Notes under the pieces: generated by a model
Databases searched by the model: none
Told to the model about the DNA's origin: nothing
The model's input: only the letters and a program-made list of their open reading frames with translations
Made by a program: the position numbers and the translations under genes
Source of the DNA: Acidisarcina polymorpha
Lineage (GTDB): Bacteria > Acidobacteriota > Terriglobia > Terriglobales > Acidobacteriaceae
Length of the DNA: 64,000 nt
NCBI RefSeq assembly: GCF_003330725.1
Contig: NZ_CP030842.1
Coordinates: 1 to 64,000 of the forward strand
Direction: 5' to 3'
Shown here: in pieces, positions 1,945 to 30,092 of the stretch
How the letters are laid out: every line of letters starts with the position of its first letter
Numbering within the stretch: the first letter of the stretch is position 1

Positions 1945-2028
1945 GAAAACTGTGCCTGCGTTGGTTTTCCAACCGACTGCGGGGAATTTGGACATGTGCC
2001 TCGTTCGCGACCTTAAACATGAATTATT

Positions 2029-2148
2029 CGCAGTCGGCTGGAAATCTCGGCGGCAAGTGAGCACTCAAGCAGCCCAAACCAGGGTACAACTACGAACGTT
2101 TCATTGAACTTCCAACCGACTGCGGAAATGACGTCCGGAGAACCGCCG
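2029..2148 (+). repeat. 120-bp direct repeat, copy 1
   Basis: This 120-bp block is repeated at 2245-2364 with only a few substitutions. It starts with an iteron in plus orientation (2029-2045) and contains one in minus orientation (2110-2125), so each copy is an inverted iteron pair. Confidence 0.85.
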
Positions 2149-2244
2149 CCGGATCAGCAAAGGCACTATGAAGATCGATATGCGGCAACTCGAAGGCTTT
2201 GTATGAGGGTCCCTAGCAAAGCAATCAATGCAGTAGTGTTACAC

Positions 2245-2364
2245 CGCAGTCGGCTGGAAATCTTGGCGGTAAGTGAGCACTCAAGCGGCCCAAAGCAGGG
2301 TACAACTACGAACGTTTCATCGAACTTCCAACCGACTGCGGAAATGATGTCCGGAGAACCGCCG
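2245..2364 (+). repeat. 120-bp direct repeat, copy 2
   Basis: This is the second copy of the block at 2029-2148, same length and offset by 216 bp, with iterons at 2244-2261 (plus) and 2326-2341 (minus). The 96 bp between the copies is not repeated. Confidence 0.85.
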
Positions 2365-2498: not shown

Positions 2499-2648
2499 CC
2501 GCAGTTGATTGGAAGATGACCCGCAGCTGGCTTGAAAAACTACCGCAGCTGTTTGGAAACACACCCGCAGTCGGCAAGAAAGTTGATCCGCAGCTGGTTG
2601 GATCTGAATCCGCAGTCAGCTGGAAATTATCCCGCAGTGCATTGGAAA
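2499..2648 (+). repeat. Seven-copy 22-bp phased iteron array
   Basis: CCGCAG-initiated units start at 2499, 2521, 2543, 2565, 2588, 2610 and 2632, a spacing of 22, 22, 22, 23, 22 and 22 bp. Each has the form CCGCAGnnnnnnnGGAA or a close variant. Twenty-two base pairs is two helical turns, so all seven lie on the same DNA face, as expected for binding sites of a replication initiator. Confidence 0.88.
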
Positions 2649-2926
2649 AATTATGTTCTTAAGTCTCATTTCTCTTTGCATTTACGATTCTCTAAAGCTC
2701 TTAAGCTGCTTTACAGTTTTGTATATTCAATGGAAATTACAGGCATCAGCAACGCAACTTGGGCAAAGACCAATATGACACAGCGCTCTAAGCAAATCGC
2801 GGCCACAATCATGACGATGCCTGATGCTGTTGATCTAATCAGGTTTGAAAAAACCTATTACAGATAGGATTTTTTGGCGCACATGAACGTCGTGGAAAAC
2901 TCGTCTCTAGTCGCCGAATTGAACAA

Positions 2927-4327
2927 ATGGTTAATCGCGACGGCAAAAAGATCAGAGTTTCCGCTGAGTTTCGTTCCTCCGAGACGCTAGGACTTCCATC
3001 GACATCCGATCGGGACAAGTACATGGCGTTCATGAAGCTCGCGATGGAAACAAAGCTCAAGATGGGCGTGATAAACAATCCTATTAGGTTTTCCGGCTAC
3101 AGTCTGCTGAACATATTGGGACAGTGCGATTCCGGAGAAAACTATGAGGCGCTAAACAGCTGGGGCATGCGAATGGCCGACACTACAATCACCTCAGAGC
3201 AGGTGATTTATTCGTCGGTCCGGAAGCGCTATATGAACAAAACTGTTCATGTATTTCGTAGTTTTACTCGCCTGGGCACCAGCGGACTAAATAATTTTGG
3301 TCGAGCCGATATGTTCGAGGTAGAGCTTGAAGATTGGCTCCTCGAGAACCTTAACGAGTCTTTTGTCGTACCCGAAGACTTCAATATGTACCGCAAACTG
3401 GTTCGACCTACGGCAAAAGGCATTTTTGTCTATTTGTATTTGTGGTTCTACGCCAGCCAGGGTAGACAAGTAGAGAAGGATTATGCGGAGCTCTGTGCTC
3501 TACTAAACATCCGTACCTACGACCACGTCTCCAAAATTCGAGAGACAATCGGACTGTCGCTTACAGACTTAGTGAACATAGGATATTTGAGGAGTTGGGA
3601 TGTCAGACCCATGATGTCTAAATCTGGGTATAAGTTGATTCTGACTCCGGGAAGAGCAATGAAGGATGTCCTCCTCCTCACTCAACGAAAACAGCTCGCT
3701 CTCGTGGGGCAAACTGATATGCCACTGTCCGATTCACGTGAAAGTGCCATGGCTGCTTTGATCGAAAAAGGAGTCAGCCCCACGAAGGCAAAGGATCTCG
3801 CCGGAAGACTTGAGCCCTCCGCCTTGCTTGACAGAATCGAATTTGTTAGCCACCAAGTTGAATCCGATACCAGGAAGAACATCAAGAATCCAGCCGGCTA
3901 CCTCATTAGCTTTCTTGAAAGTGACCAACTTGTTCCTAGTAACTTTCAGACCTCGAGGCAAAGAGTGGAACTCCAAGCCAAAAAAGCGCACGAAGATTCC
4001 CTACGGGCGCGCAACACTGCTAATGCTCTCAAGCAGTTGCACTTGCAAGAGGAATATGAAGCGTGGAAGCGCGTCGAAGCAGATAGCGTAATTGCACAGA
4101 GATTTCCCAAAGCTGCTTTGGTCGAAAAACTGAAAGGCGTTTCCAGCCAACTGCGGAGGGAACCAACAGTCGCATCATTCCTTGACAGATTATCCCAGGA
4201 ACAAAGGCGCCGCGAACTCATGAAGCACCTCCGTAATGAAGTGATCAGGGAGCTCGATTGGCCGTCTTTTGAAGAGTGGCAGCGCGCTGATCCTCAAAGG
4301 AGGCTTTTTCAAATGGGTGACGACTGA
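2927..4327 (+). CDS. repA: Replication initiator protein (RepA type)
   Basis: This 466-residue protein resembles the replication initiator protein A (RPA) family. The N-terminal part has the family pattern GLPSTSDRDKYMAF at about residues 24-37, then IRFSGYSLLNILG and a winged-helix-like core up to about residue 250 (WLLENLNESFVVPEDFN, GIFVYLYLWFYASQGR). The C-terminal half is helical and charged, with KNIKNPAGYLISFLE near residue 325. It lies directly downstream of the iteron array. ATG at 2927 has no clear ribosome site. The frame is open back to 2849, so a non-AUG upstream start adding about 10-20 residues is possible. A minus-orientation iteron lies inside the gene at 4141-4157. Confidence 0.85.
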   Translation: MVNRDGKKIRVSAEFRSSETLGLPSTSDRDKYMAFMKLAMETKLKMGVINNPIRFSGYSLLNILGQCDSGENYEALNSWGMRMADTTITSEQVIYSSVRKRYMNKTVHVFRSFTRLGTSGLNNFGRADMFEVELEDWLLENLNESFVVPEDFNMYRKLVRPTAKGIFVYLYLWFYASQGRQVEKDYAELCALLNIRTYDHVSKIRETIGLSLTDLVNIGYLRSWDVRPMMSKSGYKLILTPGRAMKDVLLLTQRKQLALVGQTDMPLSDSRESAMAALIEKGVSPTKAKDLAGRLEPSALLDRIEFVSHQVESDTRKNIKNPAGYLISFLESDQLVPSNFQTSRQRVELQAKKAHEDSLRARNTANALKQLHLQEEYEAWKRVEADSVIAQRFPKAALVEKLKGVSSQLRREPTVASFLDRLSQEQRRRELMKHLRNEVIRELDWPSFEEWQRADPQRRLFQMGDD

Positions 4328-4517
4328 ACTCTCTTCTATTCTGCGGGACTAGTGAAGCCTAATCCGCGTCGCAAGAAGCTTTACGTCTTTCAGCATGCGA
4401 CTTTCCATCCAACTGCGGAAAGGCATCAATTAATACATTTCAGGCTACCCTTGATGAAAGAACCTGCGGATACGAAGTCCGGGTACGAAGTATCCAGTAC
4501 AACCGGATCGCAAGCTT

Positions 4518-4689: not shown

Positions 4690-4975
4690 CAGCCCTCCCC
4701 GCCCGGGCTTTCCAGCGCTATTTTCGATCTTGACTTCCGGCCCCGCGAAAGCCATCAAAAATAGGGCAGGGAAGCGGTGGGTCAAAACTTCCCCTTTGTG
4801 GGACTCCGGTAGCCTTCTATCTGGAGTTTCCAAATCGCCGTTTTTCGTTCGCTATCTGATATACAGACGTAGTGCCCGCTCTTTCAAAGTTCGCGACAAG
4901 CGCCGGTTTCTCATTGCCGCGTCACAAAAGCTTGCCGAATCGGAATTTGTTTCGTTCGAGGGTGATCTCAACTGA
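4619..4975 (+). CDS. Hypothetical protein, start uncertain
   Basis: The frame ends at 4975 with a TGATG overlap into the next gene, which supports translational coupling and so a real 3' end. The convincing part is the last 45 residues (FVRYLIYRRSARSFKVRDKR, then a short acidic tail). The first 60 residues are Pro/Ser-rich, overlap the ORF at 4558-4689, and may not be translated. A start inside the frame is likely. No family recognised. Confidence 0.35.
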   Translation: MNPPRKSSPHVRPRKPIWSTSETSSPPRPGFPALFSILTSGPAKAIKNRAGKRWVKTSPLWDSGSLLSGVSKSPFFVRYLIYRRSARSFKVRDKRRFLIAASQKLAESEFVSFEGDLN

Positions 4976-5196
4976 TGGGGCACAAGCAGAATAAGACGTG
5001 GGTCGCAATCCTTTCATTCTCGCTGTTCGTGTTTATAGCTTTCGACTGCTTGCTGATATACCTATCGGCTAGCGGCAACCTAGGGCCTCCAAGCAGAACT
5101 GTCATACACATTCTCATATTTTTATGGGGCACTTGGGCCGCATTCAGGGCGTTAAGGCGACGGATGACAACAAGGCCCTCTGCAGGCTCAAATTGA
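4975..5196 (+). CDS. Small two-helix membrane protein
   Basis: This is a 73-residue protein with two hydrophobic segments, WVAILSFSLFVFIAFDCLLI (about residues 9-28) and a second at about residues 43-58 (VIHILIFLWGTWAAF). A basic C-terminus RALRRRMTTR suggests both ends are cytoplasmic. The start codon overlaps the upstream stop (TGATG). I cannot assign a family; small membrane proteins are common next to plasmid maintenance loci, for example in entry exclusion, but nothing here proves a role. Confidence 0.5.
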   Translation: MGHKQNKTWVAILSFSLFVFIAFDCLLIYLSASGNLGPPSRTVIHILIFLWGTWAAFRALRRRMTTRPSAGSN

Positions 5197-5755
5197 CCAT
5201 TGCTAAAGTGTGGGACATCAACACCCGCAAAGTCAGGTTATCGGAAAGAGCGAACTCGGAAAGGCTGGCCTTCGTTCTGTTATTTAGCTTGCACGGGCTC
5301 GGCGTACATTTAGAACAATGGCTTCGCCCTTCATCAACGTAATAAGAGAGCTAATTCATCAGAATGATGCAAAAGGTAGATTCCGATCTTCCGGGCTACA
5401 CCGAGTTCATCGAATACCTTAATCGAAGGGGCCAGAGCACAACTCGGCGGGACTTTCTTCAGGGACATCCCGCTCGGCATGAATGAGAGTAAGCGGATCC
5501 GTGCAGTTGGCTTACTTCTTGAGCATGCGCAATCGGCTTTTCCCGACGACGCTGCATCTGTTCGAGCTCTTTAGCCGGTGCAACGGCCGCTCCAAATGCA
5601 GAAATCCCAGTCGAGTTGTGGGGAGAGGCTGAATCGATACCCTGGACGACATCGATGGTGCAATCATACTAGGCGAATTTAGGCAAATGTGAAAAGTACG
5701 TTTCACAATAGACGGTGGCCTCCAGATTGGAAGCAACCCCCTCGCCACCCCCCGA
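5197..5755. other. Gene-poor stretch with short coding remnants
   Basis: No intact gene is evident. On the plus strand a 40-codon frame starts at about 5363 (MMQKVDSDLPGYTEFIEYLN). On the minus strand, about 5650 to 5480, an ATG-less frame reads GAAVAPAKELEQMQRRREKP, which looks like former protein-coding sequence. Neither can be named. Confidence 0.3.
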
Positions 5756-6250
5756 TTACGACTCCTGGCGGCCTATAAATTCCGGGAGAGTGAAAACCTT
5801 CTTTTTTCGCTCTTCCTCCGCTTGACGATACAACTCCGCATCCCCCCGAGCCTTGGCCCGAATGCTTTCCCGCTGGGCTCGCCAGTCCATACTTTCTTGC
5901 ACAACGTGCCCTTCGATTCGCGAAACAATTGGTGCTGCTTGAGAATCAGCCGCAAGAGAGACAGGGAGGGGGAGTGAGGTTCTCGCTTCTACTTTTTCCG
6001 AGCTGCGCGCGAATAGCAAGTGAGTCATTCTCGTGAATTGGGTATATCGGCCGCGATACCCGCAGTTGACCAGTTCCATCCAGATTTCCTTCCACGTCAG
6101 GCCTAGTGCGCGCACAGCCGACAACTGAGGTGCCAACCCCTTGAGGGGACGAGCGCTGGTCCACTGTGCTCCGCTCCGGCTACGGTGGCAAACGAGATAA
6201 GTATGTTTTTCTAAGTTTAAGTATGCCAAAGTCTGATTATGTCTGCTCAA
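5756..6250 (-). CDS. TraK-like mobilisation accessory protein
   Basis: The distinctive part is RALGLTWKEIWMELVNCGY followed by YTQFTRM, at about residues 47-75. It matches the pattern of TraK-type oriT-binding proteins (a helix with a Trp, then GY-x-x-F-T-R). The C-terminus is a charged helix (RAKARGDAELYRQAEEERKK). The frame opens with TTG at 6250; no ATG precedes the conserved part, and the first 40 residues may not be native, so the true start could lie further in. It sits beside 20-bp repeats and a relaxase remnant, which fits a relaxosome role. The family call is by pattern and moderate in strength. Confidence 0.5.
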   Translation of the reverse strand: MSRHNQTLAYLNLEKHTYLVCHRSRSGAQWTSARPLKGLAPQLSAVRALGLTWKEIWMELVNCGYRGRYTQFTRMTHLLFARSSEKVEARTSLPLPVSLAADSQAAPIVSRIEGHVVQESMDWRAQRESIRAKARGDAELYRQAEEERKKKVFTLPEFIGRQES

Positions 6251-6264
6251 GTCTGATTATGTCT
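6229..6264. repeat. 20-bp-period direct repeat (AAGTCTGATTATGTCT x2)
   Basis: The 16-mer AAGTCTGATTATGTCT occurs at 6229-6244 and 6249-6264, a 20-bp period. It overlaps the putative start of the TraK-like gene, so it may be an operator or protein-binding site. Confidence 0.75.
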
Positions 6265-6324
6265 TAATGGCTACTTTTCGCGGCTTCTTGCCGCGGCGAG
6301 GTAGGGCTCTTTGAGCCTTCGTCT

Positions 6325-28697: not shown

Positions 28698-30092
28698 TCA
28701 CTTGTGCGCTTTAGGCCGGATGTTCGCCAGGGTGAGCCAGCCATCTAACGTAGCGTCCTGGCTGATGTTCGCGAAACGCACAGGGCGCATGCCGGGCAGC
28801 GGCGTCACGATGCGCATCAGCAGGTGGGCGCCGTCGATCCCTCCCGCGTTTGCAAGCTTAGCAGAGAACACGTGAGAACTTCCCGGCAAAATGGTAGCGA
28901 GAGGCCAATGCTCGATGACGCGGCTACCCAAGTGTCCCTTGCTATCAACAGTGCTGATCTCCATTGGCCATCTTCCATAAAAGGGCGCGATGCCATGGTT
29001 CTCGAGTCTGACTTCGACTGCAAGATCGTTCTGTGCATCCGGTGAAAGAGAAACCGCGCTCACCGAAAGCTGATATCCAGTCAAACGATCTGCCTTCAAC
29101 ACGTCATCCTTTTTCATGGGGGACGGCATGCCCTTGGCGTCGAAAATATCGGGAGCCACCAGCCAACTCAGGTGTGTCGTTCGAATGCACTCCAGCACCT
29201 TTTTCCCTTCTGTTGTTGCTTTGTCAGTGAATACGCCCGTTTTATCAAACCCGAGAGGCGAAAGACCGGCCGTCATGGGTTGCGTTTGCCACAGATCTGT
29301 CATGTCCGAACTCTGCACCTGCTGCCAGAAGTTCCAGGCATGACTGCCCAACGTAAGCTCTACGAACGCTGCATCGTAGAGTCCGAATTTGCGGATCAGA
29401 TCGTGGTCAGCCGAGTCAGATGGGTGGCGAAGCTGCAACATGGTTTTTTTGAAAGACCGCTCCATGGTCGATACCAGCAGATCTTTATCAAAAGGGAACA
29501 TCTCCCAACTGGAATGTTGCCCAACCTGCCAGTCTCCGCGAAAGCCGTACAAGCCAGGCACAATGGATGCAATTCTGGGGTCTCCGTCATAGCGAGCGCC
29601 AAGAGCAATCAAGAACGCGGTGAATGCCTGCACGATCCGTTGGTCACGGTAGTCAGGACAGATGCTCTTCCCGTTATTTTTGAGGTCGCCGTAAGTAAAA
29701 GTCTGAAGGCCTTCATCCAGCAGAAACTGAGGAATGCCTGTCGAGTACCCCGGGTAGTCGACGTAGAAATGAAGAACGGTTTGGTACCCAAGGGAACGCA
29801 CATGATTAAGCGCCTCTTCGACAGACGTCCAATCGAAGGAAGAAGGCCCCGTCATGATCGGCCGCAAAGGCAAATTGATCCAAACCATGCTGTGCGGGAA
29901 AGTGCTATCGGCCTGATCGACTCCGTCCGGCATAAACCCTCGAAGCGGGTTCCAATCGAGTGCGGGCGCGCTCCCGTCATAGGTGAGTAATTCCCATTCC
30001 TGCGGAGAACGGCCCGTTGCGCGGGCGCTAAGTAGAATCGAAGACATGAGCAGGTGAACTACCAGCAAATGTCGCCCCCTGCGCCGGCTCAC
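28698..30092 (-). CDS. Secreted glycoside-hydrolase-like DUF4832 protein
   Basis: This is a 464-residue protein starting at GTG 30090-30092, overlapping the upstream stop (GTGA). A signal peptide spans about residues 8-24 (LLVVHLLMSSILLSARA). The core is a TIM-barrel-like domain with NPLRGFMPDGVDQADSTFPH, VLHFYVDYPGYSTGIPQFLL, GLYGFRGDWQVGQHSSWEMF and FGLYDAAFVELTLGSHAWNF. The C-terminal 130 residues form the beta-domain DUF4832 (LAVEVRLENHGIAPFYGRWP). The fold suggests a carbohydrate-active role, but catalytic acids are not established. It is the last gene of the PLD-DUF481-hydrolase operon. Confidence 0.8.
   Translation of the reverse strand: MSRRRGRHLLVVHLLMSSILLSARATGRSPQEWELLTYDGSAPALDWNPLRGFMPDGVDQADSTFPHSMVWINLPLRPIMTGPSSFDWTSVEEALNHVRSLGYQTVLHFYVDYPGYSTGIPQFLLDEGLQTFTYGDLKNNGKSICPDYRDQRIVQAFTAFLIALGARYDGDPRIASIVPGLYGFRGDWQVGQHSSWEMFPFDKDLLVSTMERSFKKTMLQLRHPSDSADHDLIRKFGLYDAAFVELTLGSHAWNFWQQVQSSDMTDLWQTQPMTAGLSPLGFDKTGVFTDKATTEGKKVLECIRTTHLSWLVAPDIFDAKGMPSPMKKDDVLKADRLTGYQLSVSAVSLSPDAQNDLAVEVRLENHGIAPFYGRWPMEISTVDSKGHLGSRVIEHWPLATILPGSSHVFSAKLANAGGIDGAHLLMRIVTPLPGMRPVRFANISQDATLDGWLTLANIRPKAHK

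Follow-up and report, generated by a model that had tools for sequence, protein, structure and literature searches.

An iteron-type candidate origin with putative dispersed control sites on a plasmid of Acidisarcina polymorpha, and its relatives in Acidobacteria

The repeats surrounding a rep gene on a plasmid of the acidobacterium Acidisarcina polymorpha very likely represent an iteron-type origin of vegetative replication (oriV), together with a region controlling copy number, presumably kept low. Rep binding, DNA melting, replication, copy control and the low copy number itself are predictions, which we infer from comparative analyses of DNA, protein families and a structural model. According to the scenario favored here, drawn by analogy with characterised iteron plasmids, Rep, a protein of the RPA family plausibly made of two winged-helix domains, would bind side by side the seven phased units found at 2499-2648, open the AT-rich leader at 2649-2774, and recruit the host replisome. 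The same protein would also bind dispersed copies of the unit located upstream of rep, within it and beyond its end. Many of the dispersed sites, above all those of the class hereafter called B, appear to face each other at whole helical turns, and Rep would most likely bridge them by looping or handcuffing. Bridging, together with the titration of free Rep, would keep the copy number low; at high copy, Rep would tie the array to the dispersed sites.

The window, i.e. the whole stretch of 64,000 nucleotides analysed, very probably belongs to a plasmid of A. polymorpha SBC82. It makes up the initial 64,000 bases of contig C3 (108,812 bp), within a genome of 7.6 Mb made of five contigs. The SBC82 genome report (PMC6252331) lists, besides the chromosome, four circular plasmids (62,450, 108,812, 196,405 and 121,048 bp), and names 454 and MinION as the sequencing platforms. 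A search limited to the RPA family identified no second RPA gene on the 108,812-bp plasmid. Two neighboring genes lie outside the origin. The first, at 186-863 on the minus strand, encodes a ParA-family partition ATPase, the second, at 1591-1944 on the plus strand, a small protein of 117 aa which is probably the partition partner. Many TTACG(T)AA-like repeats can be spotted by eye between the two genes, at 870-1085, and may be regarded as a candidate partition site or operator array.

The main array spans 2499-2648 on the plus strand, and includes seven units sharing the 16-bp core CCGCAGnnnnnTGGAA. CCGCAG-type units start at 2499, 2521, 2543, 2565, 2588, 2610 and 2632. All seven units, and all the steps of 22, 22, 22, 23, 22 and 22 bp listed in an earlier note on this DNA, are confirmed by these positions. 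The same note interpreted phasing as the outcome of selection rather than accident, and the array is indeed beyond chance expectation. A detector blind to the motif, which chains units at steps of 20-25 bp and counts chains of four or more units, scored 96.2 at the array, and found no such chain either in 240 first-order Markov shuffles (12 for each of 20 regions) or in 230 real 900-bp tiles from the rest of the plasmid. When a looser detector was used (minimum of two units, steps of 19-25 bp), the top score in 60 shuffles of this part of the window was 13.4. The exact CCGCAGnnnnnTGGAA pattern occurs 20 times genome-wide, ten of which within the 2.5-kb origin region. Helical phasing of iterons is described as usual and functional, and phased iterons as needed for origin function, in the part of PMC5043065 dealing with the subject.

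Similar phased motifs lie beside homologous rep genes. Arrays with a period of about 22 bp precede rep in all the 20 loci compared, which are the window, 17 loci obtained by scanning a genome collection, plasmid pACIX901 of Granulicella tundricola, and contig C4 of the same genome as the window. One step, the third from the end, is longer (23 or 24 bp) in 17 of the 20 loci; L009 and L010 have no longer step, and in L019 this is found one unit later. The last unit starts 293-303 bp before a common Rep position in 18 loci, and 314 and 326 bp before it in L011 and L012, respectively; these distances are accurate to within about 3 bp, alignment starts varying by at most one residue and the C4 anchor being one base low. 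RPA reps of this kind are uncommon, since they were found in 17 of 398 genomes of the family. An initial sample of 60 other genomes contained no relative, and none was confirmed among 116 candidate stretches in viral contigs. A search of the phylum retrieved 18 more distant acidobacterial RPA loci, some of which are related to one another: 16 feature arrays with periods of 19-23 bp and other unit sequences, four of which are weak (L033, L045, L046, L048), and L032 and L036, the latter with a short upstream part, yielded none. Later searches at the family, genus and class level gave arrays in 19 of 21 loci examined, four of which (L077, L078, L079, L092) repeat earlier ones; L089 and L093 have none, and the “array” of L095, counted among the 19, is a 7-bp repeat and not an iteron array. 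A RPA rep, flanked by a full array and a ParA homologue, resides also in a chromosome-sized record (5.2 Mb) of Terriglobus roseus DSM 18391 (L008), and is a candidate for an integrated plasmid or a second origin.

The leader separating the array from rep (2649-2774) is 65% AT, against 45% for the window, in line with the succession of array, AT-rich stretch and rep reported earlier. The region is a candidate to host both the unwinding element and the rep promoter, and a block at about 2690-2740 (CTTA...CTTTACAG) is partly conserved. A consensus search found no sigma-70-type promoter close to rep. Similarly, no site differing by at most one mismatch from TTATCCACA, which we take to be the E. 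coli-type DnaA box consensus and which may not be the one used by the host, was found by this origin; at the same threshold such sites are missing in 14 of the 20 loci, including the window, and present in six. One may thus wonder whether the array is mainly the operator through which Rep represses its own gene, the true origin lying elsewhere on the plasmid. The position of the array upstream of the rep start, and the lack of a DnaA box by consensus, would fit. Yet one or two operators usually suffice for autorepression, whereas here seven units are kept in phase across families, and the leader beyond the array exceeds the array itself in AT content at all the 20 loci, though weakly so in L003. 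Operator and origin roles can moreover coexist, and an array serving mainly as operator seems very unlikely to us.

The rep gene (Pfam RPA, PF10134) covers 2775-4327 on the plus strand. The open reading frame as recorded extends from 2927 to 4327 (466 aa), but homology starts upstream, the Reps of relatives beginning about 50 residues before it. The earlier note was right in locating rep downstream of the array, but let the preceding feature run to 2926; judging from the alignment with relatives, the gene probably starts near 2775 and not at 2927. Compared to 19 of 19 relatives, which are in frame, the window lacks one base in the A run at 2848-2853, and the frame is consequently broken. The break may be a read error, a slippage site or a real loss. 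Taken at face value, the missing base would suggest that the replicon has decayed, and that the plasmid relies on another initiator. We consider this unlikely. Both 454 and MinION reads are prone to errors in homopolymers, the remainder of the frame is open, and array and intragenic site are kept as well as in relatives; in addition, translation might begin at the internal start at 2927, or slippage might occur at the A run.

The frame of the window Rep scores over the Pfam RPA cut-off (28.3 versus 27 bits), and all 17 aligned Reps match RPA at E ≤ 0.1. Weak matches to Pfam TrfA were found in 6 of these 17 (best E 0.029), RPA being the family over threshold. Searching solved structures by sequence retrieved no plasmid initiator, the best hits (E 0.1) being unrelated molecules. 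An AlphaFold2 model was made of the Rep of L006, which is 69% identical to that of the window. The model, of mediocre quality (mean pLDDT 64.8, low in the N-terminal part), can be structurally aligned with RctB (Z 12.2), pi (Z 10.7) and RepE (Z 10.6), and Foldseek ranked RctB first (E 6.7e-07), with RepE and pi near E 0.01. These alignments suggest that Rep shares, at the fold level and as far as the model shows, the two-winged-helix architecture of iteron initiators. The earlier reading of the array as a candidate iteron origin before a RepA-type gene is supported by the assignment of Rep to the RPA family, by the conservation of the array and by the match of a relative's model to RctB, pi and RepE.

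Array units fall into two classes. Class A units (CCGnAs...TGGAA) were found in 9 loci (62 units), class B units (GAGAGGT...TGGCA) in 11 loci (73 units). Unit class divides a tree of 17 Reps, which leaves out L009, L020 and L021, at a single 100/100 branch. This partition bears on the hypothesis that the repeats are a centromere, i.e. a parS array bound by the partner protein of ParA, and not by Rep. Gene order lends some credit to the idea, as the small gene at 1591-1944 ends just ahead of the first site, its homologues are found upstream of the array in L006, L007 and L022, and L003 has a small partner gene overlapping parA, with repeats immediately after it. However, the units co-vary with Rep and not with partition proteins. 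The partition proteins of L003 (class A) are similar to those of L017 (class B) (ParA 81%, small partner 60% identical), yet the two loci have different units, and their Reps are 44% identical; units therefore follow Rep. In turn, the window and L003 both have class A units, but a comparison of their small proteins gives no significant match (best E 2.6). Furthermore, a parA homologue is located behind rep in L008, L012, L015, L016, L018 and L019. The centromere was rejected on these grounds, and we deem it most improbable. Since unit class tracks the Rep tree and not the partition proteins, Rep is the likely reader of the units. In each of A. polymorpha, G. rosea and G. aggregans, a class A replicon is accompanied by a class B replicon, which is what compatible plasmids would show. 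Units differing by eye were observed in genomes carrying two RPA arrays (G772, G773, G994, G076, G123, G272); in G076, one unit half is common to the two arrays. Such differences would be expected if unit sequence sets incompatibility.

Eight further copies of the unit, five of which on the minus strand, reside beyond the array at this locus, and had escaped the earlier note. Upstream of the array are found a minus-strand iteron at 1967-1982 (25.5 bits), two pairs of facing iterons, and a weak plus-strand unit at 2452-2467 (10.9 bits). In the first pair, the iteron at 2028-2043 (plus, 20.0 bits) faces that at 2110-2125 (minus, 25.5 bits), in the second, the iteron at 2244-2259 (plus, 24.9 bits) faces that at 2326-2341 (minus, 25.5 bits); the distance is 82 bp start to start in both. 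The two pairs are copies within a 120-bp duplication (2029-2148 and 2245-2364, 95% identical). The remaining iterons, both on the minus strand, map in the 3' end of rep (4141-4156, 25.6 bits), at a position kept in most class A relatives, and just downstream of the gene (4403-4418, 21.5 bits). Dispersed sites beyond the array were found in 20 of 20 loci, and look like copy-control sites, acting through looping or handcuffing. Isolated iteron-like matches are also found far from the origin, at 29950 and 43666 in the window, and at 81829 and 96030 in C3 (15.9-21.5 bits). Four matches over 15 bits on about 104 kb of plasmid compare with none or one per shuffle in ten shuffles, and these remote sequences are possible Rep titration sites.

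The geometry of the dispersed sites is best defined in class B. Pairs of facing sites (plus then minus) are spaced 83-85 bp in 15 of 17 cases, 6 of which come from internal repeats of L004; the other two spacings are 63 and 115 bp. When counted by locus, a facing pair at 83-85 bp occurs in 10 of 11 class B loci, L021 being the exception. Taking one pair per locus, among pairs pre-chosen at 80-87 bp, the spread is 0.83 bp, versus 34 bp for the distance from pair to array. The DNA between facing sites has a median identity of 0.57, versus 0.56 in shuffles (45 pairs). A conserved element lying between the sites, either a promoter or a small RNA, was considered and discarded, since spacers are at shuffle level, only those of L014 and L016 are related, and the window pairs are duplication copies. 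In the reverse order (minus then plus), 25 of 27 class B spacings measure 40-41, 51-55 or 62-63 bp, and the other two 27 and 29 bp; eight come from L004 repeats. Opposite-strand spacings in class B are in register with the helical repeat (n=26; R 0.69 at 10.5 bp; p 0.00005, the lowest value that 20,000 jitter trials can return), in a test leaving out L004 and L014, pairs over 160 bp and sites under 13 bits. Phasing of opposite-strand sites is not significant in class A (n=14, p 0.09). Spacings between plus-strand sites are weakly phased (p 0.013), and no helical phasing was found between minus-strand sites. As to L004, located on contig C4, a sister plasmid, eighteen dispersed sites of at least 16 bits crowd the region 4920-6290 upstream of the class B array, mostly alternating in strand, in a repeat of about 136 bp.

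Facing pairs of class A are less uniform, 3 of 7 being spaced 82-83 bp (82 bp twice in the window, 83 bp in L006), the others 28, 55, 58 and 95 bp. The intragenic site is at an identical place in 6 of 9 class A reps. The distance from the site to the end of the stop codon is exactly 172 nt in L003, L006, L007, L009 and L022, and 187 nt in the window, whose Rep carries five extra C-terminal residues; in L003 the site is on the opposite strand. L010 has an intragenic site elsewhere, L008 and L011 have none. Upon synonymous shuffling of the seven site-bearing genes (2,000 trials each), an equally good site arose between 0 and 5 times per gene. No comparable site was found in the eight class B reps tested (L012-L019). 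It is tempting to imagine that Terriglobia RPA plasmids share a copy-control cassette of facing iterons spaced precisely to the base pair (83-85 bp, eight turns, next to back-to-back intervals of about 41, 52 and 63 bp), which, along with a rep iteron locked in position but free to flip in orientation, would form a rigid Rep-DNA loop switching the origin off. We put forward this idea tentatively, as a possibility somewhat short of even chances. We know of no characterised iteron plasmid featuring a similar arrangement, and a literature search on inverted iterons and helical spacing found none.

The expected pattern was set down before the result of the family search was seen. The search returned mostly loci already compared, or near copies of L016, but also a new class A locus, L065, which has no 40-mer in common with the 20 loci. 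The steps of its array (22, 22, 22, 23, 22 and 22 bp), and an intragenic site at the same 172-nt distance from the stop codon end, are both as predicted. Among minus-plus spacings, that of 63 bp fits the prediction, that of 136 bp was not foreseen. L065 has also a facing pair at 85 bp (83 bp in the 18-bp register), although such a pair had been predicted for class B only. L080, L081 and L082, which are also new but made of different units, have arrays, though no facing pairs at 83-85 bp. It follows that the array is general, and that the fixed pair belongs to class B and to part of class A. Two more loci on contig C6 of genome G730, L075 and L076, are fragments of a second RPA rep beside the intact class A rep of L065; they hint at a decaying replicon, and are uninformative for the predicted pattern. 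The plus-strand array of L080, made of a third kind of unit, is preceded by dispersed units, ten of which are on the minus strand and one on the plus strand.

The kind of origin is already known, because R6K too has seven iterons of 22 bp, according to the section of PMC4980987 which gives 17 bp as the length of RK2 iterons. What seems new is its occurrence in Acidobacteria, along with the conservation of the longer step, facing pairs at a fixed distance and a site locked in position inside rep. The resemblance to the R6K gamma origin extends to the fold of pi, though the search of solved structures revealed no sequence relation. DnaA sites bound the R6K origin in the account of PMC5043065, whereas none is found here by the E. 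coli-type consensus, and the Acidisarcina locus differs also for the presence of opposite-strand units and an intragenic unit. RK2 shares outlying iterons, and deletion of the region containing its iteron 10 raises copy number, as mentioned in PMC11983097. The weak TrfA matches described above go in the same direction, but the Acidisarcina Rep belongs to the RPA family, and the seven-unit array adjoins rep and has a conserved longer step. The same text places the control iterons of FIB plasmids away from the origin block, and presents handcuffing as their presumed mode of action. Mini-F and FIB are thus comparable both for the fold of RepE and for control iterons beyond the origin block; in contrast, control units are here mostly upstream, on both strands, and in class B at fixed helical distances. 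In Vibrio cholerae ori2, an origin array, an adjoining regulatory block and distant titrating sites are described in the relevant part of PMC6090056. RctB is the best fold match, and array plus outlying sites are found in both systems; however, the 39-mer control sites of RctB differ from its iterons, while one motif serves here for dispersed and array units.

A named relative is found in the same phylum. The Rep of G. tundricola pACIX901 is 58% identical to that of the window, and is preceded by seven units with steps of 21, 22, 22, 23, 22 and 22 bp. Dispersed, intragenic and downstream units are also present, but the six dispersed units upstream and the intragenic unit are all on the plus strand. 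In the PLSDB table, which covers genes only, the protein is annotated as “replication initiator protein A”, and no repeat feature is given. Searches of open-licence PMC papers found no iteron origin described for Acidobacteria, work on the host range of PromA plasmids being all that was retrieved, and nothing combining iterons and PF10134. This fits the earlier remark that acidobacterial plasmid origins are poorly described.

The locus offers a well-defined candidate origin, open to testing, for the plasmids of a soil phylum both abundant and little studied, and hence a starting point for acidobacterial vectors. Spacing kept while the intervening sequence is lost would be a natural gauge of the contact between initiators bound to separate sites, and such contact is an old question about handcuffing.
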